Part shown: positions 1,571-56,914 of the stretch, piece after piece | Layout: each line of letters opens with the position of its first letter | How positions within the stretch are numbered: position 1 is the first letter of the stretch | From: an uncultured Opitutia bacterium | GTDB taxonomy: Bacteria; Verrucomicrobiota; Verrucomicrobiia; Opitutales; Opitutaceae | Length of the DNA: 64,000 nt | NCBI GenBank assembly: GCA_903877135.1 | Contig: CAIRCN010000044.1 | Location: 1 to 64,000, forward strand | Direction of reading: 5' to 3' | Translations under genes and position numbers: made by a program | Notes under the pieces: model-generated | Databases searched by the model: none | Told to the model about the DNA's origin: nothing | The model's input: the letters and a program-made list of their open reading frames with translations, nothing else

Positions 1571-2494
1571 ATGCCCACCGCCACCGCTGCACGTCCGCCC
1601 TTGAGAATCGCCTTAGGCGCGAACGAGACCGGAGTGTTTGACGCCGGGCTGCCCGTGCTCGCAGGCGAAACGGAGGAAAATCTCTTCGGGACTGTCCGAC
1701 CCGTCGGCCGGGCGGGCGCCCTCGAGCTCTATCAAACCGAGGGCTGGCTGCTGGGTGCCGCTACGGTTCCTCTGCCCGCCGGTTTGGAGGAGACGGCGCG
1801 CACGCTTTACGGGGATATTTTCCAGGCGGCCCGGGGCTGGCATCTCGCGCGGATCTGGAATTATGTCCCGGCCATCAACGCGCCCGGGCCTTCCGGTATG
1901 GAAAATTACCGCCACTTCTGCCGCGGCCGCTCGCTGGCTTTCGAACAGCACTACGGTCGCGGGTTCAACGCCCAATTGCCGTCCGCCTCCGCTGTCGGCA
2001 CCCGCTCCGCGACGCTGACCATCGCCTTCGCCGCGTGCCCAACCCACCCGCGTCACGTGGAGAATCCGCTGCAGGTGTCGGCCTATAACTATCCCGCCGA
2101 ATACGGACCTCGCCCGCCCAGCTTCGCGCGGGCCACCGTGGTGCCCGGACTGGACCACGCCGCGGTTTTCATTTCCGGCACCGCGGCAATTCGCGGCCAT
2201 CATACCGTCGCCGCCGACAACACCCGGGAGCAGCTTGCCTGCACGCTGGAAAATCTCCGCGGAATCTCCCTCGCCTGCGGGCTCGGCCCCGCGCTCGATC
2301 CGGGCGGCGGCTCGCGACGTCACTTTAAGGTCTACCTCCGCCATGCAGCTGATCAACCCGCTGTCGCCGCTGCCCTGGACGAGAGACTCTTCACGGGCGC
2401 CGACCGCGTTTCCTATCTGCAGGCCGACCTGTGCCGCGCCCGGCTCCTCGTTGAGATTGAGGCATCACTCTTCGGCGTCGCCGGTCTCCGCTGA
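1571..2494 (+). CDS. Chorismatase-type enzyme (FkbO/Hyg5/XanB2 family)
   Basis: The 307-residue protein resembles the chorismatase family, which converts chorismate to hydroxybenzoate or a dihydroxycyclohexadiene acid plus pyruvate. Supporting segments are a RIWNYVPAIN stretch followed by E-x-Y-x-x-F-C-x-G-R in the middle, a Y-G-P-R-P-P-S-F-A-R-A segment, and a conserved core I-S-G-T-A-x-I-x-G-H-x-T. In xanthomonadin clusters an enzyme of this family supplies 3- or 4-hydroxybenzoate as the aryl starter. Here it faces the aryl ligase and overlaps it by 30 bases at the 3' end, which supports the same role. Which hydroxybenzoate it makes cannot be read from the sequence. The ATG at 1571 is the first start in frame. 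Confidence 0.8.
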   Translation: MPTATAARPPLRIALGANETGVFDAGLPVLAGETEENLFGTVRPVGRAGALELYQTEGWLLGAATVPLPAGLEETARTLYGDIFQAARGWHLARIWNYVPAINAPGPSGMENYRHFCRGRSLAFEQHYGRGFNAQLPSASAVGTRSATLTIAFAACPTHPRHVENPLQVSAYNYPAEYGPRPPSFARATVVPGLDHAAVFISGTAAIRGHHTVAADNTREQLACTLENLRGISLACGLGPALDPGGGSRRHFKVYLRHAADQPAVAAALDERLFTGADRVSYLQADLCRARLLVEIEASLFGVAGLR

Positions 2495-3829
2495 CGGGAA
2501 AGTCAGCGCCTGCAACGCCCGCGTATCGGGCTTGCCCCGGGCCGTCACCGGCAACGCCGCGACGACGCGCCACATTTTCGGGATCTTCCAAGAAGCGGTG
2601 TCGGCAAAGAGCGCCGCGCGCAACTCAGCCGCGGTCCGCTCGGTCGCCACCACGGCACCAAGCACGGGCTCTGCGCCCGCGCTGACGCTAACCCACGCGT
2701 CCCGCACGCCGCCCAGACCACGCAACCGGGCCACTACCTCCTCTAGATTCACGCGCCGCCCGGCAATCTTCACCATCGTGCCGAGCCGGCCCAACAGGGT
2801 CAGGCATCCGCGGGTGTCGACCGCCACGAGATCGGGCATGATCCACGCGCCGCGCCGGCCCACGCACCGGCGGTGGCCATACGTCAGCACTGCGGCACTG
2901 CTGACCTTCAAGCGTCGCCCCGGCAGCGCCGTCAGTCGCACGCCGCGCAACGCCCGCCCCACGCCGCCGTCGAGCGTCGCGGCCCCGGTCGCGTCATACG
3001 CGATGCCACCCGTTTCACTCGAGCCATAGAAACTGTGCAGCCGCCGGCCAAATTTTTTTGCGAAATCGCGCGCCACGTCCACCGGCAACGGCGCCCCCGC
3101 CGAGATGCCGAGCCGGAGACTTTTCAGCGCTACCGCGGACGCCGCAAGCGCGCGCCACACCGCGGGCACTCCGGGAAACACGGTGGGGCGCCAGCGCGCA
3201 AAATCCGCCGCAATCGCGTGCGGTAGCGGTGCTGTCGCGCAGACCTGCGGCACCCCCTGCGCCATCAACGGCAGCGTCAGGTTGCCGAGGCCGTAGGAAT
3301 GGCCGAGCGGAATCATCGCGTAGTTTAGGTCGCGCGGACCGATGCCCATCGTGGCCGTGACCTGATGCGAGTCGGCGAGCAACTGCCCCGCGGTGAACAC
3401 GAGCGGTCGCGGATGGCCCGTGGTGCCGGAGGTTATTTTGATCAGACAAACCTCCGGGTCGCGCCACCGCTTCTCCCCTGCAAGTGGCATGAGCCTCGTC
3501 CCACTCCACCAGAATCCCGCGCGCAGCGACGCGGCCAAGCCGCGCTGCGCCTCGGCCGGCTCCGCGGCGTCGAGCGGCACTGCGAGCGCACCGGCGCGCA
3601 TCAGGCCGAGAAACACCTCCCACCAGCCGATGCCATTGGGTGCGGCGAAAACCACCGCGCGCCCCGCGAGAGCGCCCGCCGCCGGCACCTGCGCCGCCAG
3701 CCACGCCGTCGCACGCGCATCCAATTCCCCGAACGTCACGGCCTGTCCGTCGGCCGCCTGCACCACGGCGCGCCGGTCGCCGCCACGGTGCAATGTTTTC
3801 TCCCAAGCGGCGATGAGGGCGTGGCTCAT
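2465..3829 (-). CDS. AMP-dependent ligase for aryl starter activation
   Basis: This 454-residue protein belongs to the acyl-adenylate-forming ligases. It shows the phosphate-binding loop ITSGTTGHPRP, the YGSSETGG motif, and a C-terminal A-R-G-K-P-D lysine motif, so the catalytic elements are intact. In aryl-polyene clusters such a ligase adenylates the aryl carboxylic acid and loads it onto an acyl carrier protein in the cytoplasm. Here the partner acid would come from the convergent chorismatase. The start chosen is the ATG at 3829, because it overlaps the exporter stop by the four bases ATGA, typical of translational coupling; the frame stays open upstream but the protein-like sequence does not continue. 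It is the last gene of the minus-strand operon. Confidence 0.85.
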   Translation of the reverse strand: MSHALIAAWEKTLHRGGDRRAVVQAADGQAVTFGELDARATAWLAAQVPAAGALAGRAVVFAAPNGIGWWEVFLGLMRAGALAVPLDAAEPAEAQRGLAASLRAGFWWSGTRLMPLAGEKRWRDPEVCLIKITSGTTGHPRPLVFTAGQLLADSHQVTATMGIGPRDLNYAMIPLGHSYGLGNLTLPLMAQGVPQVCATAPLPHAIAADFARWRPTVFPGVPAVWRALAASAVALKSLRLGISAGAPLPVDVARDFAKKFGRRLHSFYGSSETGGIAYDATGAATLDGGVGRALRGVRLTALPGRRLKVSSAAVLTYGHRRCVGRRGAWIMPDLVAVDTRGCLTLLGRLGTMVKIAGRRVNLEEVVARLRGLGGVRDAWVSVSAGAEPVLGAVVATERTAAELRAALFADTASWKIPKMWRVVAALPVTARGKPDTRALQALTFPSAETGDAEE

Positions 3830-6171
3830 GCCTTGTTCCCGAGACCGGCCAGATGCTCGAACTCGATCACGAGCAGCGCGGCGATGACCATGAGTGCGAC
3901 CGTCGAGCCGAGCGCGCGCACCACCGGAATGCCACTCAACGCCAGCACGCCAAACGAGGCCGCCGTGGTCAGCGCCGACAGCCGCACCGATACCGGCGGC
4001 GGCTCGCGCCGGTAGGCCGACGTCGCGGAAAAGATCGAGTAGTTGTGCGTCAGGCAGACGCCGAGAAACGCGCCCAGCAGGTGAAACAGGTTCAGCGGCT
4101 GTCCAATCCACCCGAAAAGGCCAAAGATGCCCAGGCAGGCGCCGCACGGAATGGCGAAGATGCGCACACCGTCGCGAAACCCGTAGGACAGCAACACGCC
4201 GGCGCCGACGATCGCGAGTCCGGTGAGGCTGAGCCACATCGCCGACTGGCGGTAACGGCTGAACAGCCGGTTGAGCGTCTGCAGCTGGCTCGCGCTCACT
4301 GTGTGGGTGTCGGCCGGCGGCGGCAGCGCGGGGGCCTCCGTGGCGATTGTGACGAACCAGCTCAGCGGCTGCCCGCTGTGCAGCAGCAGCCCGAGCGGCC
4401 CCGTGAGTTTTGCCTGCAAGGTCGTGACGGCAGCGGCGAGATCGCCCGTCTTCGCCTGGCCGGTGTACCGCGCATAGGCGGCGAAGAACGCGCCGAATTC
4501 GGCCGGATCAAAACCCTCCTTCTCCAGCGCTGCGCGCAGTTGTGCGGCAAAATCGGGCTGTTCGTGCACGAAGCGCAGGGCACGCGCGTGCTCCTCCGCG
4601 GTTGGCACCAGCACGCCGAGGCCGATGGTCCGGGTTCGTCCGTTGCCGGCGGCGTGCAGCCAGCCTTCGAGTCGGCCGAGCGAGGCGCGCGCCTCGGTGA
4701 GACTGGCGCCGTAGGTTAGGTAGACGGTGCCATCGCTGCGATCACCGAACAGCGCCCGAATGCGCGCATCCTCGCGCTGCAGGGCCGGCGACGGAATTTC
4801 CAGCTCCCGGATGTCGTCGCGCCAGTGGAGCAGCGCTAGTCCCGGCAGCGCGATGATCCAGACGGCCACCAGCAGCCGGCGCAGTCCGGAGCGCCAGCCG
4901 GCGGACAGCGCCTGCCCGCCGCGCCAGGTCCGCGTGGGCAAAAACGCATTTCGCACCGTGGAAAAATAGACAACGGCCGCCGCCAGGGCGGACACCAACC
5001 CGGCACCGACGAACACGCCGAGCTGGCGGATCAGCGGCAGCTCGGAAAAAAGCAGCAGTGCAAATCCCGCCACGGTCGTGAAGCAACTGGCAAGGAGCGG
5101 CTTTGCCAGCCGGCGCACCTTCTCCCAGTAATCCTCGTCCGCCCGCGCCGGCGGTTGCAGGTAGAGATAGAAGCCGTAGTCGATGGCGACGCCGGTCAGC
5201 ATCGAACCAACGACGAAGACCAGGATGTGCAGCCGGTCGAACGCGAGGGTGGCACACACCCAGGCACCGAGCATGGAAAGCAGGACCACTGGAATCAGGT
5301 GCAGGCCGCGGTGGACTGCCGGGATGAACGTAAACGCCACCGCGAGCACCGCGGCCAGCGACAACGCGTTGAGCCAGGTGACCTCGTGCTCGATCCGCGC
5401 GCGACTGGCCGCCGCGAATCGGTTCACGCCCGTGCTCGCCACGTGCAGCCCGGGAAAGTCCGCGCGCAACTCCGCCGTCACGCGCTCTATGGCCGTGAAG
5501 GCGGGTGTCTGACCCGCCTCGCTCAGAGGTGAAGCGGCCAGTTGCGCCCACACCAGCGCGGACGTCATCCCGCTCGCAGCGGCGGGCCCGCCGGATAAGC
5601 TGTCCTTGAGCCGGTCGACGGCGGTCGGCAGCAGCAGCAGCGGATCGGCGGGCACGAGATCCTGAAATGCGAGGGCTTCGGGCGTGGGGAGAAACCGGCT
5701 GAGCGCCGCCGCGGTGTCTTTCGCCAGCCAATCGGAAAAACCGGCCGGCGCGCCGCCCGCCGCCGCATGGGATGCCTCGCGTTCGCGGAGCCATGCGGGA
5801 AACAGCAGCGTCAAGCGTTGCTCGAACAACGCGCGCCCCAGCGCATCCCGCGGCGCCGGATCGCTCAGGGATAGCGCCTGGGTAAACGCCGGGTCCTTCG
5901 CCAGTCGCGCGGCAAATTGCTCCGCGGCCGCGGCGGGAGCAGGAGCGCCCTCGGCGCCCGTGAGCACAAAGAACATCGTCCGCGCCTCGGCCTGGCTCGC
6001 CAGCTGGCGGACCAGCGACAGCTCGGGCGAGCGCTCGTCGACAGGAATGAGGTCAAGCACGTCGCTCGAGAGCTTCCTCGCGTAGTCAAGGCTCGCCAGC
6101 CAAGTCCCGCCGGCCAGCGCTGCGGCGCCCAGCAAGCTCCAGCCCAGCAGTTGGCGGCGGCGAAAACTCAT
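3826..6171 (-). CDS. RND/MMPL-family exporter of the pigment cluster
   Basis: The 781-residue inner-membrane protein has the RND-superfamily layout: one N-terminal helix (MSFRRRQLLG then a hydrophobic stretch), a large periplasmic loop rich in polar residues, a block of helices around residues 250-420, a second periplasmic loop, and a second helix block at the C terminus. Aryl-polyene and xanthomonadin clusters carry one such exporter, thought to move the polyene or its lipid conjugate towards the outer membrane. The start at 6171 lies 4 bases after the stop of the GT2-LolA gene, and the 3' end overlaps the ligase by ATGA. The substrate is inferred from context only. Confidence 0.85.
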   Translation of the reverse strand: MSFRRRQLLGWSLLGAAALAGGTWLASLDYARKLSSDVLDLIPVDERSPELSLVRQLASQAEARTMFFVLTGAEGAPAPAAAAEQFAARLAKDPAFTQALSLSDPAPRDALGRALFEQRLTLLFPAWLREREASHAAAGGAPAGFSDWLAKDTAAALSRFLPTPEALAFQDLVPADPLLLLPTAVDRLKDSLSGGPAAASGMTSALVWAQLAASPLSEAGQTPAFTAIERVTAELRADFPGLHVASTGVNRFAAASRARIEHEVTWLNALSLAAVLAVAFTFIPAVHRGLHLIPVVLLSMLGAWVCATLAFDRLHILVFVVGSMLTGVAIDYGFYLYLQPPARADEDYWEKVRRLAKPLLASCFTTVAGFALLLFSELPLIRQLGVFVGAGLVSALAAAVVYFSTVRNAFLPTRTWRGGQALSAGWRSGLRRLLVAVWIIALPGLALLHWRDDIRELEIPSPALQREDARIRALFGDRSDGTVYLTYGASLTEARASLGRLEGWLHAAGNGRTRTIGLGVLVPTAEEHARALRFVHEQPDFAAQLRAALEKEGFDPAEFGAFFAAYARYTGQAKTGDLAAAVTTLQAKLTGPLGLLLHSGQPLSWFVTIATEAPALPPPADTHTVSASQLQTLNRLFSRYRQSAMWLSLTGLAIVGAGVLLSYGFRDGVRIFAIPCGACLGIFGLFGWIGQPLNLFHLLGAFLGVCLTHNYSIFSATSAYRREPPPVSVRLSALTTAASFGVLALSGIPVVRALGSTVALMVIAALLVIEFEHLAGLGNKA

Positions 6172-6175
6172 GCGG

Positions 6176-7579
6176 TCAGCGAAAGTAGCGCCGCACCTCG
6201 TCGGCCGTGAACGCCACCGGCGGGCGCGGCGGCTCGTTGAGAATTTCGATGTATTGCCGGGCCGAGTGCCGGAGCTCGATCCGGCGCACGACGGTGTCCT
6301 CGCCGGCCACGGTGATGATCCCGATGCCCCGGCGCAGGGTCTCGGCGCGCGCCATGAGCACGAGCGTCCAGGCTGGACCGGCGCGCTGACCGTAGATTTC
6401 AAACTCCGGCTCCAGCGCGGCGAAATCAAAGCGCAGGATATGGCGCAGCGCCTCATTGGCGGCACGGGCACGCAGATCAGCCGGCAGAGCCTTTTCGCCC
6501 GCTGCGCCACGGATCAGCATGCCTTGGGCGTCGAGGATGACTGTGCGCTCTTCCGGCGCAGTGTAGTGCAGGCTCAGCCCGTGAGCGGCGGAGACCCGCA
6601 CCTCACCCTTGAGTTCGATCGGTTGCTTCTTGAACGGGAAAAAACGGCGCTCGACGAAGTCGGCGCTGGTGTCGCCCTGATGGGCAAACGCCGTGATGAG
6701 ATCGGTCCAGCCAGGCGCGCCGGGCGCGAGGCGGTGGGCCGGACTCACGAGCGGGGCCGGCTCCGCTGCGGGGGCGAGCGCTGTCGCTAGGAGCAGCAGG
6801 GCCAGGACCGACCCGGCGAGACTCCACTGGCGGCGCTGGAGGCGGACGGCGGGCCACCGCCACAACAGCAGTTCCGCGATGAGCCGCGTGTGCATCCAGA
6901 CGAGCGCGACGTTGTCGCGCACATAGTGGAAATGCGACACGCCGCCCTCGGCGCGCGAGAAATATTTCACCGGGGCCGCGATGTTCAGCGGCGGCACGCC
7001 AGCCCAGCAGAGACGCACGGCAACCTCAGTGTCGAAATCATAGCGCCGGCCGCCGCGGCGCGGTCCGAGCACAGCCAGAAGCGGCGCGAGCGGATAGACG
7101 CGAAAGCCAAACAGCGGGTCGGCGATCCCCGCACCGAACACTTCGAGTCGCACGAGGCCGACGCTCAGTTTGCGACCATGCAGCCGCGCGGCCGGAATAT
7201 TCGGCGGAAAGATCGGCCGGCCCAAGATCAGCGCGGTCGGTTGGCACTGCGAGGCCGCCATGAATTCCGCGATACTGGCGGTCGGATGCTGCCCATCCGC
7301 GTCCATCACCAGCGCGTGCGTGAAGCCGCGCTCAAGCGCCGCGCGGGCAGCGGCGAGTGCGGCCGCGCCCTTGCCCACGTTCCGGGGCAGCACCAGCACG
7401 TTCAGCTGCGGCTCGCTCTTCGCTAGGGCCAGCACAGGGTGTTCGCTGCCATCGGTGCTGCCGTCGACGACGACCATCACCGGTTGCCATTGGCGCAGGA
7501 CCTCGGCGACGACTTCGCGCAGCCGCGGACCGGTGTTGTAGGTCGGCAGGATGACGAGGTGGGAGGCGGAGACGGTCAT
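6176..7579 (-). CDS. Glycosyltransferase family 2 fused to a LolA-like domain
   Basis: This 467-residue protein joins two parts normally made by separate genes in aryl-polyene clusters. Residues 1-230 are a GT2 glycosyltransferase: ILPTYNTG, VVVDGSTDG, and a D-A-D metal-binding motif at 93-95. Residues 253-270 form a hydrophobic segment ending in A-P-A-A, like a signal peptide. Residues 280-467 resemble LolA, the periplasmic lipoprotein carrier, including an ERTVILDAQG strand. No ATG, GTG or TTG is in frame around the hydrophobic segment, so the fusion looks real. The predicted topology is GT2 in the cytoplasm, one membrane span, and LolA in the periplasm. The ATG at 7579 overlaps the upstream acyltransferase stop by four bases. 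Confidence 0.85.
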   Translation of the reverse strand: MTVSASHLVILPTYNTGPRLREVVAEVLRQWQPVMVVVDGSTDGSEHPVLALAKSEPQLNVLVLPRNVGKGAAALAAARAALERGFTHALVMDADGQHPTASIAEFMAASQCQPTALILGRPIFPPNIPAARLHGRKLSVGLVRLEVFGAGIADPLFGFRVYPLAPLLAVLGPRRGGRRYDFDTEVAVRLCWAGVPPLNIAAPVKYFSRAEGGVSHFHYVRDNVALVWMHTRLIAELLLWRWPAVRLQRRQWSLAGSVLALLLLATALAPAAEPAPLVSPAHRLAPGAPGWTDLITAFAHQGDTSADFVERRFFPFKKQPIELKGEVRVSAAHGLSLHYTAPEERTVILDAQGMLIRGAAGEKALPADLRARAANEALRHILRFDFAALEPEFEIYGQRAGPAWTLVLMARAETLRRGIGIITVAGEDTVVRRIELRHSARQYIEILNEPPRPPVAFTADEVRRYFR

Positions 7580-8346
7580 GGCGGGTTGAGGGAGCAGGTC
7601 GTGGCACCAGACACTTCGGGCGCGGGCGCGCGAAACCACGCCTCGATCTCGGCCGTCAGTTCGGTCGGGTTGACCGCCGTGTTGGTGGGAATCAACGGTC
7701 CGACCGCAACCTCGATATGGGCCGGAAGCCGCGGCAGCCGCCACCAAGCGCGGCCCTTGGTGAGGACGTTGGAATCGGTGGTGATCCGCACCAGTTGGAT
7801 GGGCACCTGAGCTCGCCGGGCGATGAGGACGAAGCCGCGCTTGAACGGGAGCAGCGTCGTGCCGGGCGGCGTGCGTGTGCCCTCGGGAAAGATGACCATG
7901 GTGTGGCCGTCGGCGACTTTTTCCGCCGCGTGCCGGACCAGCTCAAGTCCTCCGTCATTGCCGAGGTAACCGGCGCGCCGGGCGGCGGCGCCCAGCACGG
8001 GGTTGCGGCGGATGGCGGGTTTGAAGATGCAGACCGCCTCGGGCATCCGCGCCAGCAAACAGGTGATGTCGATCAGGGCTGGGTGGTTGGCCACCAGCAC
8101 CAACCCGCCGCGCGGCCACCGCTCGAAACCGCGATAGCGCACGTGAATCAGCCCGGCAAAACCAGCCCACCGGTGGAACAGCGCCAGGTGCCGGTGGATC
8201 AGCCGCTGGAAAAAACGCTCCGTCCGTTCCGTCGCCGGCAGCCAGCCGGTCAGCAGGCTGAGCAGGCTCACTTCCAGCCCGCACACACCAAAGACCAGCA
8301 GCGTGAAGTAGTAGGTCAAGAGTTGATAGACAGGGCGGATGAACAT
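7576..8346 (-). CDS. PlsC-like 1-acylglycerol-3-phosphate acyltransferase family protein
   Basis: The 256-residue protein has the lysophospholipid acyltransferase motifs: N-H-P-A-L-I-D (the H-x4-D catalytic pair) and FPEGTRT, with an N-terminal membrane helix. In aryl-polyene clusters acyltransferases of this type probably attach the polyene to a glycerol or sugar lipid anchor. The ATG at 8346 is preferred because the recognisable family N terminus begins there, although the frame continues to 8571. It sits 22 bases after the LpxL-like gene and overlaps the GT2-LolA start by four bases. A housekeeping PlsC role cannot be excluded, but the operon position favours pigment assembly. Confidence 0.85.
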   Translation of the reverse strand: MFIRPVYQLLTYYFTLLVFGVCGLEVSLLSLLTGWLPATERTERFFQRLIHRHLALFHRWAGFAGLIHVRYRGFERWPRGGLVLVANHPALIDITCLLARMPEAVCIFKPAIRRNPVLGAAARRAGYLGNDGGLELVRHAAEKVADGHTMVIFPEGTRTPPGTTLLPFKRGFVLIARRAQVPIQLVRITTDSNVLTKGRAWWRLPRLPAHIEVAVGPLIPTNTAVNPTELTAEIEAWFRAPAPEVSGATTCSLNPP

Positions 8347-8368
8347 GCGATGCAAGGGGGCGCGCGGC

Positions 8369-9280
8369 CTATCGGGCGAGGGCCGGCGTCTCGGGGTTGA
8401 GCGGAAGAAAGTTAAACCAAAGAAACGGATGCTGGCGCACCAAGGTTTCCAGTTGTGTGAGCACGGCCTGGAAATGCGCCCGCGCCACCTGCGTGTTGGC
8501 CTCGCGTTCGGCCGCCGGGCCCGGGGTGAAGACGGGCGACGCATAGATGCGTAGTTCATCCTTCGCGGCATCCGCTACAGCGGTGCAAAATACGACCGGC
8601 CGGTCGAACAGCAGGGCGAGGTGGTAGATGGTGAAGGGAAACAGGCGGCGCGCGCCGAGGAAGAAAAACGGCTCGGACTTCGCGCTGAACTCCAACCGAT
8701 CGCACTTCAGCGCGAGGGAGTCGCCAGCCTCGATGGCCGCTTTCAGATCGAACAGCAGATGGGCGGGATCGTTGACCCAGAGAAACGAGACCTGTGCGCC
8801 ATATCGCGCGCCGAGCAGGCGGGTGTCGGTGGAATTGCCCACGCGCTGCCGGATGATGGAAACACGCCGGCCCCGCTTCCCCAGCAGGTAGCCGAGCAGA
8901 TCGGAGCCGCCAAAGTGAAACGTGCCGAAGAGCGCGGGCCGGTCTGACCGCACCAGCGCCTCGAACGCCGTCTCGTTCTCCGGCTCCAGCATGCAGCGCA
9001 CCGGCACACCGCGTCCCGCCCGAAGCTCGAACATCAGGAACTCCGCAAAGGCGAAAAAGTGCCGCCACACTTCGCCGAGTCGGGCGGGTCGGCCGAGCAC
9101 CACCGCAAGATAAGCACGCGAATGCGCGCGCTGTGGGGGCATGAACGCGAGCCCGACCCATGTGCCGGCCATCAGCATCGGACGGAAAAACCAACCCGGC
9201 CACCAGCGCTCCGCCCACAAAAGGAAGCCGTAGCCCCAGCTTGGGCCGGGATTCCGCGTGAGATTGAACGGCGTGTTCAT
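8369..9280 (-). CDS. LpxL/HtrB-like lipid A-type acyltransferase of the pigment cluster
   Basis: The 303-residue protein resembles the lipid A late acyltransferases. It has an N-terminal membrane-associated segment rich in tryptophan (about 12-40), an H-F-G-G-S-D motif matching H-x4-D, and a C-terminal P-x-x-W-F-N-F-x-P-L segment typical of the family. These enzymes move acyl chains from ACP to a lipid at the inner face of the cytoplasmic membrane. An ACP lies three genes upstream in the same operon, so the enzyme may transfer the aryl polyene itself. A GTG at 9298 could also start it, but the ATG at 9280 overlaps the preceding stop by ATGA and is preferred. Confidence 0.8.
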   Translation of the reverse strand: MNTPFNLTRNPGPSWGYGFLLWAERWWPGWFFRPMLMAGTWVGLAFMPPQRAHSRAYLAVVLGRPARLGEVWRHFFAFAEFLMFELRAGRGVPVRCMLEPENETAFEALVRSDRPALFGTFHFGGSDLLGYLLGKRGRRVSIIRQRVGNSTDTRLLGARYGAQVSFLWVNDPAHLLFDLKAAIEAGDSLALKCDRLEFSAKSEPFFFLGARRLFPFTIYHLALLFDRPVVFCTAVADAAKDELRIYASPVFTPGPAAEREANTQVARAHFQAVLTQLETLVRQHPFLWFNFLPLNPETPALAR

Positions 9281-9933
9281 GACCAATCGAGCGTCCACGC
9301 ACCGCCGGAACCGTGCCAGTGCAACGGCTGGCGCCCGGCCAGCGCCAGCGTGAAATCCTCCAGGGTGGGAATCACTTCATCGGATTGCGGGCCCGGGGTG
9401 AAGGCGACGCGTCCGGTCGCACCCACGGGATTGCGCGTCAAGATCACCGCAAAAGCGAACGACCGTGCCGAGGCCATCTGGTGTTCCAGCAGCCAGCCGC
9501 CGCGTTCCTCGCCGCCGACTAGCGCCACGCGCGGGGACGTTTCGATCAGCGCGGTCAGCAAGGCTTGCTCCACCAGCCGCGTGCGTCCGGCGAGGGGCCA
9601 GAGCCGGGCGATGGGCTGTTGCCGGCCGATCAACACCTGCTGCACGCCGCCTGGATGGATCGACGTCTGGAAAAACAACGGGCTCGCCGCCGGAAAGCTC
9701 AGCAGGAAATCCTCCAGCGCACGCGTCTCGGCAAACGTCGAGGCATAGACCAGTGCGTCCTCCGGCCCGAGCGCGGCACCGTCGAGACACGAGCCGACGA
9801 GCAGGCCGAGGTGAGTCATCCGTCGCACGGCGGTGCGCGGGAATATCGCCGCCAGCCGCAGGCGCGCCTCCGCCGCCGTCTCGTTTTCGGCGGGCACCTC
9901 GACGCGCAGGTGATGGAGGAAGCGCTCAGTCAT
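9277..9933 (-). CDS. Ketosynthase-like chain-length factor (short KS N-terminal domain)
   Basis: The 218-residue protein looks like the short ketoacyl-synthase-like proteins (Pfam Ketoacyl-synt_2 type) found beside the ketosynthase in aryl-polyene clusters. Where a ketosynthase would have its active-site cysteine, the segment reads T-S-I-H-P-G-G-V-Q-Q, so it has no nucleophile. It probably forms a heterodimer with the neighbouring ketosynthase and sets polyene length. The ATG at 9933 overlaps the ketosynthase stop by 8 bases, and the two are surely co-translated. Its own stop overlaps the LpxL-like start. Confidence 0.75.
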   Translation of the reverse strand: MTERFLHHLRVEVPAENETAAEARLRLAAIFPRTAVRRMTHLGLLVGSCLDGAALGPEDALVYASTFAETRALEDFLLSFPAASPLFFQTSIHPGGVQQVLIGRQQPIARLWPLAGRTRLVEQALLTALIETSPRVALVGGEERGGWLLEHQMASARSFAFAVILTRNPVGATGRVAFTPGPQSDEVIPTLEDFTLALAGRQPLHWHGSGGAWTLDWS

Positions 9934-11041
9934 GGGTGAGCAGCATCGCGGCATGGGCGCCGCCAAAAGCATTGCTGGTGAGAACGGCGCCATCGAAGCA
10001 CGCGCTGGCGAATCGCTCGAGCGCCACGGTGTCGGTGAAACTCGGCGCCGCGCCGCCGACCGTGCCGGGAATTTTTCCTTCCGATCCGCGCAGCGCAGCG
10101 AGCGCGATAGCAAGTTCGACGAGCCCGCAACTGCCGAGGGTGTGGCCGAGGCTTCCTTTCCAGGAAACCAGCGGTGCGCCGGGGAACTGTCGCGCCGAGA
10201 CCTCAGCCTCGATTCGTCCCGCCTCAAGCGTGCCGGTGCCGTGGCCTTTGATCCAAACCCGTCGGCCGCCTGCGGCGGCGGCGATCGCGGCAGCGCAAGC
10301 GGCGAACCCTGCGCCGTCCGGCTGGTTGCCCGTGAAGTGAAACATCTCGTTCTGCAGGGCATGCGCCGCAAGCCGGAAGGGCGCGACGTCGCGCGTCAGC
10401 ACGGCAAACGCGGCGCCGTCACCGAGACCGATCGAGCCGGTTTCACGCACCGCGTAGGGGGCGGGCATGGCGCCGTTGAGGATCTTCAGGCTGTGAAACC
10501 CACCGGCGACAAATGGGCTCACGAAATCGAACGAAAAGACCAGCACGCGGTCCACCAACCCGGCGTGCAGCAACCGGGCCGCGTATGCCAGCCCGAGGTG
10601 CGCGGTGACACAGGCGTGCGAGAAGACATGCACATGCTCGCCCCAGGCGAACTCGCGCCGCAGCAATTCCACGCTGGCGAACGGCGGGCCGTGCGCGAGG
10701 TGGCGCGCATCATGTTCGCGCGTGAAGGCATAGAGACTGCCGACCCCGAAGTTGCTGCTCGTGACGATGACCGGGGCGCGCACTGAACCCCACGCCGCCA
10801 GTGGAATGCCCGCGGCCATCCGGCGTAGCTTAGGCAGCCAGCGCGGTGGCAGTGTTTCGTCCATGGATCCGGTCAAGGCGAGCGGGACAAGGTCTCCGCC
10901 ATCACGGCCGAGCACAGGGGTGAGTTCGAGCGCGCGTCGACCCGCGAGGAGCGCGGATGCCGTGGCCGTGGCGTTGCCGAACGGCGTGAGACAGTCGCAG
11001 GCCACGATGCCCGCAGGTAGTTGATCGGCCGGCACGTTCAT
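9926..11041 (-). CDS. Beta-ketoacyl-ACP synthase of the pigment cluster
   Basis: The 371-residue protein is a condensing enzyme of the FabF/KS-alpha class. The catalytic triad is complete: Cys144 in SHACVTAHLG, a histidine in KGHGTGT, and a histidine in GSLGHTLGSCG. It would extend the aryl-primed chain with malonyl-ACP units on the ACP encoded just upstream. The ATG at 11041 was chosen because it follows the ACP stop by 13 bases and begins the family N terminus; an upstream start would run into the ACP gene. The chain-length-factor-like partner overlaps its 3' end. Confidence 0.85.
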   Translation of the reverse strand: MNVPADQLPAGIVACDCLTPFGNATATASALLAGRRALELTPVLGRDGGDLVPLALTGSMDETLPPRWLPKLRRMAAGIPLAAWGSVRAPVIVTSSNFGVGSLYAFTREHDARHLAHGPPFASVELLRREFAWGEHVHVFSHACVTAHLGLAYAARLLHAGLVDRVLVFSFDFVSPFVAGGFHSLKILNGAMPAPYAVRETGSIGLGDGAAFAVLTRDVAPFRLAAHALQNEMFHFTGNQPDGAGFAACAAAIAAAAGGRRVWIKGHGTGTLEAGRIEAEVSARQFPGAPLVSWKGSLGHTLGSCGLVELAIALAALRGSEGKIPGTVGGAAPSFTDTVALERFASACFDGAVLTSNAFGGAHAAMLLTHD

Positions 11042-11054
11042 TTCAGCAGGACAC

Positions 11055-11321
11055 TCAGACGCTAGGCGAATGGGCGCGAAGATAGGCCGCGAGGGTGTTG
11101 ACACTGCCGAGCGCCTGGCGCGACTCCTCGCTGCTGCCGATTTTCACCCCGAACTCCTTCTCTAGCGCCAGCACGAGTTCAAGAGCATCGATCGAGTCGA
11201 GGCCGAGGCGCGGCGAACCGATGAGCGGCTCATCGTCAGGAATATCACCGGGCTGGATGCCCTCGAGCTGGAGCGTGGCGATGATCAGGGTTTTGAGCCG
11301 AAGTTTTAGGGGGTCGGACAT
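11055..11321 (-). CDS. Acyl carrier protein
   Basis: The 88-residue acidic protein is an acyl carrier protein. Ser43 in the L-D-S-I-D-A-L-E-L motif is the expected phosphopantetheine attachment site. It would carry the growing polyene for the adjacent ketosynthase pair, the ligase and the acyltransferase. Related clusters usually encode two carrier proteins; only this one is seen. A 234-base gap separates it from the methyltransferase upstream. That gap has a small hairpin (11458-11474, six-base stem) without a T tract and no convincing gene, so transcription may read through or start again here. Confidence 0.9.
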   Translation of the reverse strand: MSDPLKLRLKTLIIATLQLEGIQPGDIPDDEPLIGSPRLGLDSIDALELVLALEKEFGVKIGSSEESRQALGSVNTLAAYLRAHSPSV

Positions 11322-11555
11322 GGGAAAATCAGGCGGAACAGGTGGCAGAATTTACTGCCGCCGAAACTGCTGGGTGGTTGCTCACGAGGCGTGGGCGCAT
11401 CATCAACCGAAATTCGCGGCAGGTCCAGCCTCGGCGGGCACGTGTTTGCTTCGGGTTTCCCGCCGCTTGCGGGACGACCTGGGCCGTGGAGCGTCGAAGC
11501 GAGGATCCCATCGGATATGCGGGCGGGCGGCAGGGAGAAAAAGGCAGGATTACGC

Positions 11556-12299
11556 TCAGGTAGTAGCCGACCGAGCCTTCATTGCCGTGTATTCGCTGAA
11601 TAGGCCGAGGGCGGTGTCGCGTTTCACCGCAGTGAGACCTGCGGCCATCAGCGCGCTGAGCACGGATGCGGGCGGCACGCAGGCGTCCATGGTCTCCCAG
11701 TAATAACGCATCATGTCGCGCGCATCTGTGCTGCGGGTGAACAGCTGCGTAAGAAATGGATAGATGCGGCCGAAATAGAGCCGGAAGAAAAACCCCGCAA
11801 CGCGGCCGCCCGGTTTCGTGATTTCAAGGATCAACAGCCTCCCCTCGGGCTTCAGCACCCGGCAGTATTCGCGGAACGTCGTCTCCAGGTCAGTGACATG
11901 GCGTAGCGCATAACCCATCGTCAGAAAATCGAAGAAATTGTCCGGGAACGGCAGCGCCTCGGCGCGGCCCTGAACGAAGTGCGCCCCGAGTTTGGTCCGC
12001 GCCACGGCGAGCATCCCTTCACTGGGATCCAAGCAGGTGATGTTCTCCGCGGTGCCGAGGATTTTTTCCGCCTCGACTGCCACCAGTCCGGTGCCGCAGG
12101 CCACATCAAGCAAATGATCCGGCGGACGCAGGCCGTGCTGCCTCAGCGTCCGACGGCGGTAGGAGGCACCGCTGCGCAGGAAGCCCCAGTCCACCACGGA
12201 ATCATAATGCTTCGCTCCCTGGTCGAACAGCCGGTTGACGAATTCCGGCTTGGCCTCGGGGGTGGCGTAATGGGCAACCAGTGTGGGATGGGGACGCAT
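11556..12299 (-). CDS. UbiE-like SAM-dependent methyltransferase
   Basis: The 247-residue protein is a class I SAM methyltransferase of the UbiE/MenG type. It has the SAM-binding loop LLDVACGTG, an acidic residue ending the second strand in CLDPSEGML, and a post-strand region FPDNFFDFLTMGYALRH typical of the family. In aryl-polyene clusters a methyltransferase decorates the aryl head group; a role in quinone biosynthesis is the alternative. The ATG at 12299 lies four bases after the stop of a small upstream reading frame, supporting it over a GTG at 12329. It appears to be an early gene of the pigment operon. Confidence 0.8.
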   Translation of the reverse strand: MRPHPTLVAHYATPEAKPEFVNRLFDQGAKHYDSVVDWGFLRSGASYRRRTLRQHGLRPPDHLLDVACGTGLVAVEAEKILGTAENITCLDPSEGMLAVARTKLGAHFVQGRAEALPFPDNFFDFLTMGYALRHVTDLETTFREYCRVLKPEGRLLILEITKPGGRVAGFFFRLYFGRIYPFLTQLFTRSTDARDMMRYYWETMDACVPPASVLSALMAAGLTAVKRDTALGLFSEYTAMKARSATT

Positions 12300-12303
12300 G
12301 CCG

Positions 12304-12489
12304 TCAAAGAGGCTCAACGCTAAGACCACGTGCGGGCGACACTGGAGAGTCGGAACCGAGGCAGCGGCGCTTCAGCACTTCGTCTTGGGTATTCTGGTTC
12401 GCCAAGCTTTCGCCACACCGGTTCTTGTCGGCAATCAGTTGCCCCAGCCGCACAAGCAGGTCTTCAAAGTCCAAGTTCTCGTTGCTCAT
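12304..12489 (-). CDS. Small hypothetical protein upstream of the methyltransferase
   Basis: A possible 61-residue gene begins with ATG at 12489 and stops four bases before the methyltransferase ATG. The N-terminal 40 residues look like protein, with an amphipathic helix (E-D-L-L-V-R-L-G-Q-L-I-A-D) and charged residues. The C-terminal 20 residues are low in information. No ribosome binding site is obvious, and the family is not recognised. It may be a leader peptide, a small structural partner, or a chance open frame; the close spacing is the main reason to list it. Confidence 0.35.
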   Translation of the reverse strand: MSNENLDFEDLLVRLGQLIADKNRCGESLANQNTQDEVLKRRCLGSDSPVSPARGLSVEPL

Positions 12490-34558: not shown

Positions 34559-36766
34559 TCACGCGTTGCCGAATAGTTCCGCCTGGGGGTTGGACAGCGG
34601 CTTCGCGCCGAGGAAGCTCCCGTAGCGTTCGACCCAGTCGTCGAGTTTCTCCGCGTAATAGTCGGGGTCGTAGGGCGCGGTCGCCGCGTCGTAGAGCGCA
34701 AGCGCCCGGGCGCGCTGCCAGTCGCTCGTGCGGCCCTTGGCCTTCGCGGTGATGTAGTAGCTCATGCGCTCGCCCATCCGCGGGCGCGGCGTCAGTTGCA
34801 GTGCCACCTCGGCCGATGCGCGCCGCGGCTTGCCGCCCTCGGCGATCAGGCGCTCGTAGGCGTCGGGGTTCTGGTTGAGCGTCTCGCTCTTCGCCAGTTC
34901 CTCCACGGGCACAGTGCGCTGCGCGAGCCGCTGCCGGTAATCGGCGACGAGGGTCAGCGGCGAGTCGCCGCCGGCGCCGACGAGGTAGTGGATGAGCCGG
35001 TCGCTGAGTTTGCGGAGAAACGGCTCCGTGCCACGCGAGCGGAGCGCGCTGCCGCGGAGCGTGATCCGGGCGCCGTCGTAGAGGGCGTAGTTCTTGGCCT
35101 TGTAACAGAACATCGCGGCGTATTGGCCGTCGTATTCGAGCTCGATGCCCGGCGGGAGGATGATGGCCACGAGCGCGAGCAGCGCGTCGGGGTTGGCGAA
35201 AAACTTTTCGGACGAGAGGTAGATGCCGTCGGTGTCGGCCTCGAGGATCGTGCAGCCGTGCCGGGCGAACTCGTCGATCAGCGCCTGGAGCAGCTCGCGG
35301 CCCAGGCGGGTGACCTCCGCCGCGAGTTCGCCGTCGCCGAAGCGCGCGCCGGAGAAGCCGAGGTAGCCGTAGAACGAGTTGATGAGGATTTTGAAATTCA
35401 CCTGGCGGGCCTGCGCCTCGGCGCGCTCCTCCTCGGTGGGCGCGGTGCGGGCGAGCAGTTTGTATTTCAGGCGGTAGTCGCGCAGCTGGCGCAGGAGTGG
35501 GATGAAGACGCCGAGCGTGTCGTTCTTCGGGTTGCGCCCGATGTGCAGCAGCAGGCTGGGGTAGAGCGAGGCGACGTCGAAGTGCAGCACGTGGCGGAAC
35601 ACGCCTTCCTGAAAACTGCGCGTATAGCCGCCCTCGAACGGCTGCACCTCGGGCGGCACCGGGCAGCACTGCTTGGCGTGGTAGTATTCCTCGAGGAAGA
35701 GCAGGTCGATCTTCGAGGTGGCACCGCGCAGCGTCGCCTCCTGCAGCAGCGTCGGGAAGGTGCGGACCTGCTCGAAATAGGTCGGCAGCAACTGCGCCGC
35801 CAGCCCCTGCGTCTCGCGTAGATCGTCCTCAAGATAGGCGCAGAAACGCGCCCGGTCGCTGGTGAAGACGTCGCGGATTTGACTGCCGACGATGTAAGTG
35901 CGCGTCGCGCTGTCCTCGTCGGTGAGGCCGAAGTGGAGCGCCACGTCCTTGAGTCCGTAGGAGGTGAGCTCGCGGGTGGTGATGTCGTAGAGCTGGACGA
36001 GCAGGTAGGTGTCGATGACAGCGCGCCCGGGCAGATCGCAGCGGGGAAAATCGATCCAGCGCTCGGCGACCTTGAGGCGGCTGTTGCGGAAGACGGCCTT
36101 CTCGCCGTAGCGGCCCCACGCACAGGGGACCTTGTGCAGGCGGCAGCGCTGCCGCAGGTAGTCGAGGTCGAACTTGAAGAGGTTGTGACCCTCGATCACG
36201 TCGGGGTCCTCGTGCTTGAGCGCGTGGCTGAGCGACTCGAGGAGCTTTTTCTCGGCGGCGTCGGTCGGCTCCTCGAGCACGAGCAGGCGGTTGCGGGGGC
36301 CGAAGCGGAGTCCGATCGCGAGCACGCGGTCGCCCGCCTGCGCGGCATCGCTGAAGCCGCCCGCGGCGGAGCCGGTCTCGATGTCGAGTTGGCAGCGGCG
36401 CAACTGCGCAAACGTCAAGTCGCGATAGAGGCGCTGGCGGTGTTGTAGGAGGAACTGGCTTTCGAGCGGGCGGATGGCATCGACCGCGACCGACACCTTG
36501 GCCTGGCGGATGAAGGCCTCGTAAACCTCGAGGTCCTCGGCCTGCACGAGACGGTCGAAGGGACCGACGCCGCCGAGGCGCTCGATCGTGACCGCATGCA
36601 GGTTGGCGTCGGCGGGGGTGTCGTTGAGCCAGGCGAAGGGTCGGAACGCCGTCACCTGCTCCTCGCGCCCGCCGTCCGGCGTGGCGACGGTGGTGTGCAC
36701 CTTGCCGCTGGGACCGACCCAGATGCCGCAGAGCGATCCCCGGTGTGTGGTGTGGTCCCCGAGCAT
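34559..36766 (-). CDS. Family B DNA polymerase with 3'-5' exonuclease domain
   Basis: The 735-residue protein is a B-family DNA polymerase related to bacterial Pol II. Exonuclease motifs are D-I-E-T-G (Exo I), E-G-H-N-L-F-K-F-D-L-D-Y-L (Exo II) and Y-L-E-D-D (Exo III). Polymerase motifs are D-V-A-S-L-Y-P-S (A), K-I-L-I-N-S-F-Y-G (B) and D-T-D-G-I-Y-L (C, more often D-T-D-S). All catalytic acids are present, so both activities are expected, probably in repair or lesion bypass. It stands alone, convergent with the DUF5069-like gene (22 bases). Confidence 0.93.
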   Translation of the reverse strand: MLGDHTTHRGSLCGIWVGPSGKVHTTVATPDGGREEQVTAFRPFAWLNDTPADANLHAVTIERLGGVGPFDRLVQAEDLEVYEAFIRQAKVSVAVDAIRPLESQFLLQHRQRLYRDLTFAQLRRCQLDIETGSAAGGFSDAAQAGDRVLAIGLRFGPRNRLLVLEEPTDAAEKKLLESLSHALKHEDPDVIEGHNLFKFDLDYLRQRCRLHKVPCAWGRYGEKAVFRNSRLKVAERWIDFPRCDLPGRAVIDTYLLVQLYDITTRELTSYGLKDVALHFGLTDEDSATRTYIVGSQIRDVFTSDRARFCAYLEDDLRETQGLAAQLLPTYFEQVRTFPTLLQEATLRGATSKIDLLFLEEYYHAKQCCPVPPEVQPFEGGYTRSFQEGVFRHVLHFDVASLYPSLLLHIGRNPKNDTLGVFIPLLRQLRDYRLKYKLLARTAPTEEERAEAQARQVNFKILINSFYGYLGFSGARFGDGELAAEVTRLGRELLQALIDEFARHGCTILEADTDGIYLSSEKFFANPDALLALVAIILPPGIELEYDGQYAAMFCYKAKNYALYDGARITLRGSALRSRGTEPFLRKLSDRLIHYLVGAGGDSPLTLVADYRQRLAQRTVPVEELAKSETLNQNPDAYERLIAEGGKPRRASAEVALQLTPRPRMGERMSYYITAKAKGRTSDWQRARALALYDAATAPYDPDYYAEKLDDWVERYGSFLGAKPLSNPQAELFGNA

Positions 36767-54840: not shown

Positions 54841-55896
54841 ATGGGCACATCTACCGGCGACACCGGACACATAGCGATCGATGCCATGGGTGGGGACATG
54901 GGTCCCGCCGAGGTGGTCGAGGCCGTCAAACTGGCTTTCCGCAGTCACGCGGACCTGAATCCCGTCATTTTGGTGGGAAACGAGGCGGTGCTGCGTCCCC
55001 TGCTGCATACCAGCGGGTTGCATCATAACAAACGCGTGAGTATTTTTCATGCCTCAGAAGTCGTCACGATGGATGACAAGCCGATGCAGGCGTTGAAACG
55101 GAAGAAGGACTCCTCAATGGTCCGGGCCATCGAGCTCGTCAAAGACGGCCGCGCCAGCGTCGTGGTCAGCTGCGGCAACACCGGCGCGCTGATGGCCGGC
55201 GGCACTCTCCGGTTGCGCACGATGGAAGGCATCGCCCGGCCAGCCCTGGCCGCAGTGGTGCCGCGGGAAAACGGCCACTTCATTTTGATCGATGCCGGTG
55301 CCAACCCCGTGGCCAAGCCCGAACATCTCGTGCACAACGCCATTCTTGGCAGCCACTATTGCCGCGTGGTGCTCGGCAAGGCCCGGCCCCGTGTCGGCCT
55401 GATGACCATCGGCACCGAGGAGGGCAAGGGCAACGCCCTCATCTCCGAGACCAACGAACTCCTGAAGCGCACCGGCGACATCATCAACTACGTCGGCCCG
55501 ATCGAGGGATTTCAGGTGTTCGCCGAGCACGTTGACGTCGTGGTCTGCGACGGATTTGTCGGCAACATCATGATCAAGAGCTGGGAGTCGCTTGTGAATT
55601 TTTTCTCCGGCATTTTGAAGGAAGAGTTGCGCGCCAATCCCATGCGGGCCACCGGGGCGCTGTTCTCCAAGGGCGCCTTTGCCGCGCTGAAGGAGCGGCT
55701 CAACCCCGAACGCTACGGCGGCGCGCCTCTGCTGGGGCTCCGCGGCAACATTCTCAAGGCCCACGGCTCGTCCAACAGGTATGCGATCCGCAGTGCGATC
55801 ATGGCGGCCAGCCAGATTATCAAGGCCGACATGAACCACCGGATCGAGGCCGATATCGCCCGCGCCAACTCTTTGATCGCCCGGATCGAAGGGTGA
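54841..55896 (+). CDS. plsX: Phosphate acyltransferase PlsX
   Basis: The 351-residue enzyme makes acyl phosphate from acyl-ACP for phospholipid synthesis. The N terminus I-A-I-D-A-M-G-G-D-M-G-P is the family signature, and S-C-G-N-T-G-A-L-M-A-G follows at about 105. It is between rpmF and fabH as in many bacteria, 31 bases before fabH. Confidence 0.95.
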   Translation: MGTSTGDTGHIAIDAMGGDMGPAEVVEAVKLAFRSHADLNPVILVGNEAVLRPLLHTSGLHHNKRVSIFHASEVVTMDDKPMQALKRKKDSSMVRAIELVKDGRASVVVSCGNTGALMAGGTLRLRTMEGIARPALAAVVPRENGHFILIDAGANPVAKPEHLVHNAILGSHYCRVVLGKARPRVGLMTIGTEEGKGNALISETNELLKRTGDIINYVGPIEGFQVFAEHVDVVVCDGFVGNIMIKSWESLVNFFSGILKEELRANPMRATGALFSKGAFAALKERLNPERYGGAPLLGLRGNILKAHGSSNRYAIRSAIMAASQIIKADMNHRIEADIARANSLIARIEG

Positions 55897-55927
55897 TGTT
55901 TTCCGCCACCGCCGCCCGCGCCTGCTC

Positions 55928-56914
55928 ATGCCCTCCACTGTCATTCTTGGCACCGGTTCCTATGCCCCGGACCGCGTGCTCACCAACGCTGAGCTCTCCA
56001 CCAAGGTCGATACCTCCGACGAGTGGATTCGCAGCCGCAGCGGCATCCGCGAGCGCCGTATCGCCGCCCCCGGCGAAGCCACCTCGGACATGGCGGTCAA
56101 AGCCGCCCAAGCGGCCCTAGTCGATGCCGGCATCACCGCGACCGACATCGACCTGTTGATCGTCGCCACAATCACGCCCGACCTGCCCTTGCCGGCGGCC
56201 TCGTGCATCATCCAGCACAAGCTGGGCATGCGCACCAATACAGCCTGCTTCGATCTCAACGCCGCCTGCTCGGGCTTTGTTTACGCCTTGGACACCGCCT
56301 CTGCGATGCTAGCCTCCGGGCGCTACCGCCGCGGCCTCGTCATCGGCGCGGAAAAATTGTCCTCGATCGTGGACTGGCAGGACCGGACCACCTGCGTGCT
56401 CTTCGGCGACGGAGCGGGCGCCGCCGTGCTCGGCCAGAGCGAGCAACCGGGGATCGGACTGCTCGGCACCAAACTCGGCGCCTACGGCGACTGCGTCGAT
56501 CTGCTCTGCATTACTCACGGCGGAAGTTCCAACCCCACCACGCCGGAGTCGATTGCGGCGCGCAACCACTGCATTCGGATGAAGGGCAAGGAAGTCTTCA
56601 AGCTGGCGGTGCGCGCGATGGACGAGGCGGCCCGGGATATATTGGAACAACATCAGTTGCACGCTGATCAGATTGGGCTCGTGATTCCCCATCAGGCCAA
56701 CCTCCGCATCATCGAAGCTATCTCGCAATACTTGGAACTCCCCATGGAGCGCTTCTTCGTGAACGTCGAGCGCTACGGCAACACTTCCGCCGCCTCGATT
56801 CCCCTCGCGCTCGACGAGGCGCGTCGCACCGGGCTGATCAAACCCGGTGACCTCACTCTGCTTGTCGCGTTTGGGGCGGGCTTGACCTATGGGAGCGCCC
56901 TGATTCGCTGGTAA
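55928..56914 (+). CDS. fabH: 3-oxoacyl-ACP synthase III
   Basis: The 328-residue enzyme starts fatty acid chains by joining acetyl-CoA (or a branched primer) and malonyl-ACP. The triad is intact: Cys in L-N-A-A-C-S-G-F, His in I-P-H-Q-A-N-L-R-I, and Asn in R-Y-G-N-T-S-A-A-S. It belongs to the rpmF-plsX-fabH operon and is followed after 11 bases by a BamD-like gene. It is a housekeeping enzyme and not an obvious member of the pigment cluster. Confidence 0.95.
   Translation: MPSTVILGTGSYAPDRVLTNAELSTKVDTSDEWIRSRSGIRERRIAAPGEATSDMAVKAAQAALVDAGITATDIDLLIVATITPDLPLPAASCIIQHKLGMRTNTACFDLNAACSGFVYALDTASAMLASGRYRRGLVIGAEKLSSIVDWQDRTTCVLFGDGAGAAVLGQSEQPGIGLLGTKLGAYGDCVDLLCITHGGSSNPTTPESIAARNHCIRMKGKEVFKLAVRAMDEAARDILEQHQLHADQIGLVIPHQANLRIIEAISQYLELPMERFFVNVERYGNTSAASIPLALDEARRTGLIKPGDLTLLVAFGAGLTYGSALIRW

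Follow-up and report, generated by a model that had tools for sequence, protein, structure and literature searches.

The window studied here spans positions 1 to 64,000 of contig C44 (CAIRCN010000044.1, 105,773 bp) from an uncultured Opitutia bacterium and carries a gene block that includes a chorismatase. We read this block as a divergent, chorismatase-primed lipid cluster of the aryl-polyene (APE) type belonging to the order Opitutales, in which reduction and dehydration would be borrowed from elsewhere in the cell; from the sequence comparisons below, we put the probability of this reading at roughly 0.68. Aryl polyenes are yellow, membrane-bound pigments made by many bacteria, and the clusters studied carry reductase and dehydratase genes. 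The block is a new variant of this known kind and not a new kind; what makes it of interest is the lack of the reductive steps and the deep divergence of its ketosynthase (KS). The source genome (G000) comprises 4.23 Mb in 87 contigs and is 97.3% complete. The window begins at base 1 of the contig, and the contig edge may therefore have removed genes on the left side.

Gene block and protein families

From position 12299 down to 2465, the minus strand encodes a methyltransferase, an acyl carrier protein (ACP), the KS, a chain-length factor (CLF), two acyltransferases, a GT2-LolA protein, an RND exporter and an AMP-dependent ligase. The chorismatase gene (1571-2494, plus strand) converges on the ligase gene with an overlap of 30 bases. 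All of these genes are open reading frames. Between the ACP and the ligase, adjacent genes overlap or sit within about 25 bases, and the gap between the ACP and the methyltransferase is 234 bases. The same gene run was recovered in many relatives using tblastn, with KS identities from 48% upwards; the block is therefore more than a chance arrangement. A sequence-only reading had listed these families together at 1571-12489, and all were found there as open frames. Two details changed: GT2 and LolA are both present but form a single 467-residue protein, and the span takes in the core genes but omits a conserved deacetylase gene (691-1503) and a PAP2 gene (164-682).

Pfam supported the chorismatase (PF21168, 1.9e-22), the ligase (2465-3829, minus strand, as are all genes that follow in this paragraph; PF00501, 4.5e-40), the MMPL family of the exporter (3826-6171; PF03176, 2.6e-10), GT2 and LolA (6176-7579; PF00535 and PF19574), a PlsC-type acyltransferase (7576-8346; PF01553, 5.7e-16), the C-terminal domain of the KS (9926-11041), the ACP (11055-11321; PF00550, 1.3e-8) and a UbiE/COQ5-family methyltransferase (11556-12299; PF01209, 5.9e-33). 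No Pfam family matched the second acyltransferase (8369-9280) or the CLF (9277-9933).

Profiles of the Opitutales relatives were aligned (hhalign) to 17 proteins encoded by an annotated APE cluster on a Cedecea neteri plasmid (L215), whose Ape names we assigned by gene order and product. Eight window genes, with nine domains, had one-to-one partners in that cluster. The profile matches were 98.7% for KS with ApeO, 99.2% for the ACP with ApeE (a starter ACP), 99.7% for the ligase with ApeH, 99.9% for the PlsC-type acyltransferase with ApeD, 99.8% for the exporter with ApeM, 100% for GT2 with the N-terminal part of ApeJ, 96.0% for the second acyltransferase with the C-terminal part of ApeJ (residues 259-549) and 96.4% for LolA with ApeL. 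The KS profile also matched ApeR at a lower 96.0%. In the relatives, a second KS (KS2) matched ApeR at 100% and a second ACP (ACP2) matched ApeF at 90.5%. The methyltransferase had no partner among the 17 Cedecea proteins, and the window block yielded no counterpart of ApeQ, ApeI, ApeP, ApeK, ApeN, ApeG, ApeF or ApeR. Relative to APE clusters, the family set proposed from sequence alone is therefore incomplete. Hydropathy of the GT2-LolA fusion showed one hydrophobic segment near residue 254, which would leave GT2 on the cytoplasmic side of the membrane and LolA on the periplasmic side. Of the 61 loci that allowed both domains to be located, 19 carry the fusion.

The KS residues Cys144, His267, Lys295 and His300 were invariant in 11 aligned sequences including that of the window, which bears out the earlier statement that the triad is intact. 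Among PDB sequences, the KS was nearest to ApeO-type entries (7f28_B, 2.3e-19; ApeO 6qsp_A, 5.9e-15). In a KS tree of 28 rows, 13 Opitutales KSs formed one group (100/100), which fell in a clade with ApeO (95/89) and not with FabF or the ApeR-like KSs. The KS of a Variovorax plasmid (L217) was included in this tree; as APE references, that region and a Vibrio plasmid region (L216) were discarded, since neither resembled a plain APE cluster. The CLF has 218 residues, and an alignment of 13 CLFs shows no conservation of its single cysteine, in line with the earlier description of a CLF without the active cysteine. Searched against PDB sequences, the CLF gave no match, and PF13723 had no match in the window genome. 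The predicted CLF structure (pLDDT 82.6) had ApeC of Xenorhabdus as its first Foldseek match (6qsp_B, E 1.0e-9), and structure alignment (VIA-align) scored Z 13.6 against 7f28_A and 12.1 against 6qsp_B, compared with about 11 for other CLFs and KSs.

The chorismatase was nearest in the PDB to Hyg5 (5ag3, 5.6e-41) and then to FkbO (2.9e-33). Its Gly203, Cys288 and Glu295 correspond to Gly240, Cys327 and Glu334 of Hyg5, whereas FkbO has alanine at the first two sites. This trio was present in 64 of 64 distinct sequences covering the sites, three plasmid-borne references included; the sequences came from 115 loci with a chorismatase match after removal of partial ones and copies. Gly164, Gly231 and Cys318 of Nat-hyg5 are reported to mark the class that forms 3-hydroxybenzoate (3-HBA), and Glu334 of Hyg5 is reported to be catalytic (PMC7170507). 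We equated Nat-hyg5 Gly164 with Hyg5 Gly173 by a constant offset. By this alignment, the window chorismatase keeps two of the three class marks together with the catalytic glutamate. The residue comparison cannot separate the Hyg5 type (3-HBA) from the XanB2 type (3- and 4-HBA), and the reaction of a chorismatase is reported not to be predictable from alignment alone (PMC3949708). In a tree, the Opitutales chorismatases grouped together (96/99) to the exclusion of five plasmid references; long branches meet in this tree, XanB2 was not included, and it gives nothing on origin.

The assignment to the aryl-polyene or xanthomonadin kind agreed with the APE profile matches, the place of the KS in the ApeO clade, the CLF fold nearest to ApeC and most of the benzoate-type chorismatase residues. 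Closer kinship of the KS, CLF and chorismatase to fatty-acid or unrelated shikimate genes was checked in part and was not seen, in the case of the chorismatase with a tree lacking XanB2. A lipid-linked polyene with a hydroxybenzoate starter is an inferred product, as the sequence-only reading already stated.

With the arc cluster of Azoarcus BH72 and the xanthomonadin cluster of Xanthomonas, the shared components are chorismatase, ligase, ACP, KS, a second KS-like protein, acyltransferases, glycosyltransferase, LolA, exporter, methyltransferase and deacetylase (PMC3949708, Table 1). The deacetylase gene of the Azoarcus arcuflavin cluster is arcN, which may be compared with the window gene at 691-1503 (PMC3949708, Table 1). 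Azoarcus also has a reductase (arcH), dehydratases (arcI and arcS) and a halogenase (arcA), none of which was found in the window. With the enterobacterial APE clusters (E. coli CFT073 ape, Xenorhabdus and Cedecea L215), the window shares ApeC, D, E, H, J, L, M and O, and its relatives also hold ApeF and ApeR counterparts. In contrast to those clusters, ApeJ is split in the window and its GT2 half is fused to LolA. Further, the window has its own chorismatase, whereas E. coli is said to take 4-hydroxybenzoate from UbiC (PMC8253772). Glycosyltransferase, LolA, acyltransferase and exporter genes are said to recur in the flexirubin clusters of Bacteroidetes (PMC3949708); no dialkylresorcinol gene turned up in the window block, although flexirubin sequences themselves were not compared.

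Missing ketoreductase and dehydratase

The sequence-only reading did not mention that the block lacks genes for a ketoreductase (KR) and a dehydratase (DH). We examined 90 sequences (L115-L203 and the window), from which 31 without ACP, KS, GT2, RND or ligase and 2 copies were removed, leaving 57 clusters. In-cluster searches used tblastn (E 1e-4), and the line at 57% KS identity that divides 39 close clusters from 18 others was chosen here; some loci end before the position of KS2 or the chorismatase. A chorismatase was present in or near 50 of the 57 clusters. The 39 closest clusters had a chorismatase in 36 cases, an ApeR-like KS2 in 29 and a halogenase-like match in 11. Among the other 18, the numbers were 14 for DH, 14 for chorismatase, 4 for KS2 and 13 for halogenase-like matches. 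Overall, DH matches were found inside 14 of the 57 clusters, and the window block had none.

In Pelagicoccus, Cerasicoccus and G315, small dehydratase-type frames lie between the acyltransferase and GT2 genes, between the RND and ligase genes, or in both places. When five such frames were compared with Pfam, one passed the ApeP-like cut-off, two fell just under the ApeI-like or ApeP-like cut-off, and two were unmatched. In G354, an ApeP-like match lay in the frame of the exporter. The ApeP-like model gave full matches in G315 and G505. In Opitutaceae, neither an ApeI-like nor an ApeP-like DH was found, the ApeI-like type having been sought with the Pfam model only. Dehydratases of these types need 3-hydroxyacyl substrates, and the sister clusters that carry them would therefore depend on a reductase acting in trans.

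Candidates for such enzymes were sought elsewhere in the genomes. With the ApeI and ApeP Pfam models, seven genomes gave sub-cut-off matches only, and in the four genomes checked (G000, G021, G070 and G064) the ApeI matches were FabA-family loci; these candidates were rejected. In G000, the conserved C4 locus (L071, 8104-12691) holds an ACP-FabZ fusion, an ApeR-like KS, an SDR and an MGDG-synthase-like glycosyltransferase. It was rejected as a dedicated second locus, with its ACP-FabZ fusion present in 181 of 200 family genomes, and is a possible trans source of KR and DH. The C85 locus (L070, 8355-15121, G000) contains an ACP, an ApeR-like KS and, by eye, hydrolase-, HAD phosphatase-, aminotransferase- and transporter-like genes. 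It was not supported as the site of a relocated KS2, since a C85-like KS and an in-cluster KS2 occur together in G025. A similar run is present in G025 (L077), and the C85 locus has the look of a further small lipid or polyketide cluster. A further row of genes in G000, C57 (L073, 4785-12569), comprises a KS, an FAD enzyme, FabZ-, FabI- and FabH-like genes and a hydrolase (by eye; FabZ by Pfam).

These searches bear on the idea that the APE pathway is complete but split, with a dedicated KR and DH elsewhere in the genome that we missed. The Azoarcus genes are indeed divided over two loci (PMC3949708), and the C4 locus offers an ACP-FabZ fusion, a KS and an SDR. However, the C4-type fusion occurs in the family regardless of the cluster. 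FabA-family dehydratases numbered three in each of eight genomes, five with the cluster and three without it (sister ApeI-like sequences were not searched genome-wide). Similarly, the best ApeQ match in all eight was a FabG-like reductase at 42-46% identity, with or without a cluster. We consider a split pathway quite improbable.

Several findings weigh against our reading of a polyene made with borrowed reductive enzymes. No KR was found inside any of the 57 clusters or in the window block, and no DH inside any of the 39 clusters with a KS identity of at least 57%. In A. baumannii, FabG in place of ApeQ is reported to yield almost no APE, and Leu185 of ApeQ (Phe183 in FabG) to account for part of the difference between the two (PMC8041823). 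Leu185 of Cedecea ApeQ is the leucine of an APGLI motif, and the FabG-like reductases of all eight genomes have phenylalanine (APGFI) at that site. Because FabG failed to replace ApeQ and the Opitutaceae FabGs keep the phenylalanine, the known system would not predict a simple borrowing of FabG. The stem of the KS clade is very long (3.03 changes per column), and the substrate of the KS may accordingly have changed. Its predicted structure was poor (pLDDT 68.9) with FabF as the first structural match, so we dropped the KS structure as a means of telling ApeO from FabF. The profile match of the CLF with ApeC, at 50.1%, is weak by sequence. The chorismatase scored 190.9 bits, below the NCBIfam TIGR04444 cut-off of 325. 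It also has Ala141 at the Hyg5 Gly173 site, where the 64 sequences show alanine in 57, glycine in 6 and cysteine in 1, and where the three plasmid references and FkbO have glycine; the alanine at this third named class site lowers our confidence. Finally, the cluster-free genome G112 is one that we take to be Lacunisphaera limnophila, an organism reported to be cream-coloured and to grow pale yellowish in liquid culture, and colour alone therefore proves little.

Some of these points favour a different product, an aryl-primed lipid that is not a polyene. The KS-CLF, acting without KR and DH, would make a short poly-beta-keto chain, cyclised or left short, and the cluster would export an aryl lipid. 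The absence of KR from all clusters and of DH from the closest ones, the long KS stem and the failure of FabG to substitute for ApeQ in A. baumannii would fit such a product. So would the equal number of FabA-type dehydratases in genomes with and without the cluster and the behaviour of the ApeP-like model, which gave only weak matches in five Opitutaceae genomes as against the full ones in G315 and G505. In contrast, sister clusters of the same KS clade hold ApeI- or ApeP-like dehydratases with their need for 3-hydroxyacyl substrates, no cyclase or aromatase family turned up for the block proteins in Pfam scans, and the transport and anchoring genes match their APE counterparts. On balance we regard a non-polyene lipid as unlikely.

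The lack of ApeF, ApeR, DH and KR could also mean that the window copy is decaying and now yields no product. KS2 is present in 29 of the 39 closest clusters and absent from the window, although some of the other ten end before its place. However, all remaining frames are open, the catalytic residues of the KS and the chorismatase are retained, and a set without KR and DH is maintained across 39 clusters whose KS identities range from 57 to 100%. Four more loci (L138, L139, L140 and L142) likewise have the methyltransferase directly before the ACP and no KS2. Decay seems very improbable indeed. Most core mutants of the E. coli cluster are reported to lose the pigment, whereas an apeF mutant retains it in part and extracts of an apeR mutant retain the APE lipid (PMC8253772). 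Absence of ApeF and ApeR from the window therefore need not abolish the pathway.

Whether, or how, this Opitutaceae cluster makes a polyene is a testable question. More broadly, the evidence leaves us evenly divided on a general proposal for the order: an APE-type pathway in Opitutales that has no dedicated KR and, in Opitutaceae, no dedicated DH either, where ancestral ApeI and ApeP would have been lost and the diverged KS-CLF would either use FabG and FabZ or make a new aryl lipid. Since this order has retained genes for starter supply, chain extension and export and has none for reduction in the cluster, it tests the generality of the rules drawn from APE clusters.

Methyltransferase and proposed pathway

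The methyltransferase scored 140.6 bits, below the NCBIfam UbiE equivalog cut-off of 216. In 15 of 25 loci, from clusters with a KS identity of at least 71%, it lies directly before ACP2 and KS2, and an MBL gene like that of the window is near it in only 4 of the 25 (L138, L155, L158 and L164). For these reasons a mere housekeeping neighbour is disfavoured and the methyltransferase probably belongs to the cluster; a role as MenG in menaquinone synthesis is conceivable.

From the gene families we infer the following product, order of steps, trans-acting enzymes and location. The chorismatase would convert chorismate to 3-hydroxybenzoate and perhaps some 4-hydroxybenzoate, which the ApeH-like ligase would load onto the ApeE-like ACP. 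The ApeO/ApeC-like KS-CLF would elongate this starter with malonyl units. In every cycle, reduction and dehydration would fall to a KR and a DH encoded elsewhere, with fatty-acid synthesis or the C4 ACP-FabZ/KS/SDR locus as their most likely source. The ring hydroxyl may be a target of the methyltransferase. GT2 and the two acyltransferases would join the acid to a lipid anchor. The lipid would then reach the outer membrane by way of the RND exporter and the LolA domain tethered to the membrane, and there it would quench oxidants.

Distribution and neighbouring genes

A profile scan of GTDB genomes found 83 relatives of the KS, of which 80 were kept. By title, 77 are Verrucomicrobiota fitting Opitutales, one is Pedosphaera and two are named only 'bacterium'; thus 78 of 80 agree with the verrucomicrobial source suggested earlier. 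They include Opitutus, Lacunisphaera, Oleiharenicola, Rariglobus, Ereboglobus, Didemnitutus, Pelagicoccus and Cerasicoccus. Among 387 genomes of the phylum, 37 passed a KS threshold of E 1e-20. At least 50% identity was seen in 21 of them, all of the same order; the other 16 matched at 30-38% identity, and 15 of these lie outside the window's order. In 200 genomes of the family, the chorismatase was found in 63, the KS in 64 and both in 58, three weaker chorismatase matches (G005, G053 and G126) having been left out; the Fisher value for this overlap takes no account of kinship among the genomes. KS and chorismatase distances were correlated over 49 loci (Mantel r 0.886; 0 of 999 permutations as high), as would be expected for jointly inherited genes.

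The chorismatase and KS of G013, which we take to be Opitutales bacterium ASA1 (Congregicoccus parvus), lie inside region 4 of that strain, published as an antiSMASH 'arylpolyene' region (PMC10927696). The region is reported as one of low similarity, and the strain's authors place it in Alterococcaceae; here G013 was counted within the window's family. A cluster of this kind, a probable ortholog, is thus already in print at the level of antiSMASH rules. Our literature search found no paper combining 'chorismatase' and 'aryl polyene', and the portions of the literature covered held no gene-level account of this Opitutales cluster. In G480, a different Verrucomicrobiota locus (L205) gave ACP, KS, acyltransferase, FabG and FabZ matches and is perhaps a complete canonical APE cluster within the phylum.

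Halogenase-like matches were found near 24 of the 57 relatives' clusters, and none in the window's first 20 kb. Such genes lie singly or in pairs beside the cluster in many sister genomes, as in L154 (3628-4971, minus, and 5759-7312, plus), L196 (12512-15416, minus) and L200 (11928-13190, minus); three were tested, and Pfam Trp_halogenase matched both L154 genes and the one in L200. These flavin halogenase-like genes suggest that halogenated relatives of the product may exist, including in marine genera. In some Opitutaceae clusters, a radical SAM gene lies at or near the ligase. That of L042 (12293-13954, minus) encodes a B12-binding radical SAM protein by Pfam, and frames of the same cluster occur in L044, L049 and L051; it is a possible alternative tailoring enzyme.

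To the left of the chorismatase, the minus-strand gene at 691-1503 encodes a NodB-like polysaccharide deacetylase (PF01522, 5.3e-26) and is a conserved neighbour in relatives. The plus-strand gene at 164-682 encodes a PAP2-family phosphatase (Pfam PAP2, 1.3e-15), which adjoins the deacetylase and chorismatase in several relatives and whose membership in the pathway is uncertain. Two genes of primary fatty-acid synthesis, those for PlsX and FabH, occupy window positions 54841-56914, some 42 kb away from the cluster. Further, this bacterial genome carries a gene for a family B DNA polymerase at window positions 34559-36766 on the minus strand.

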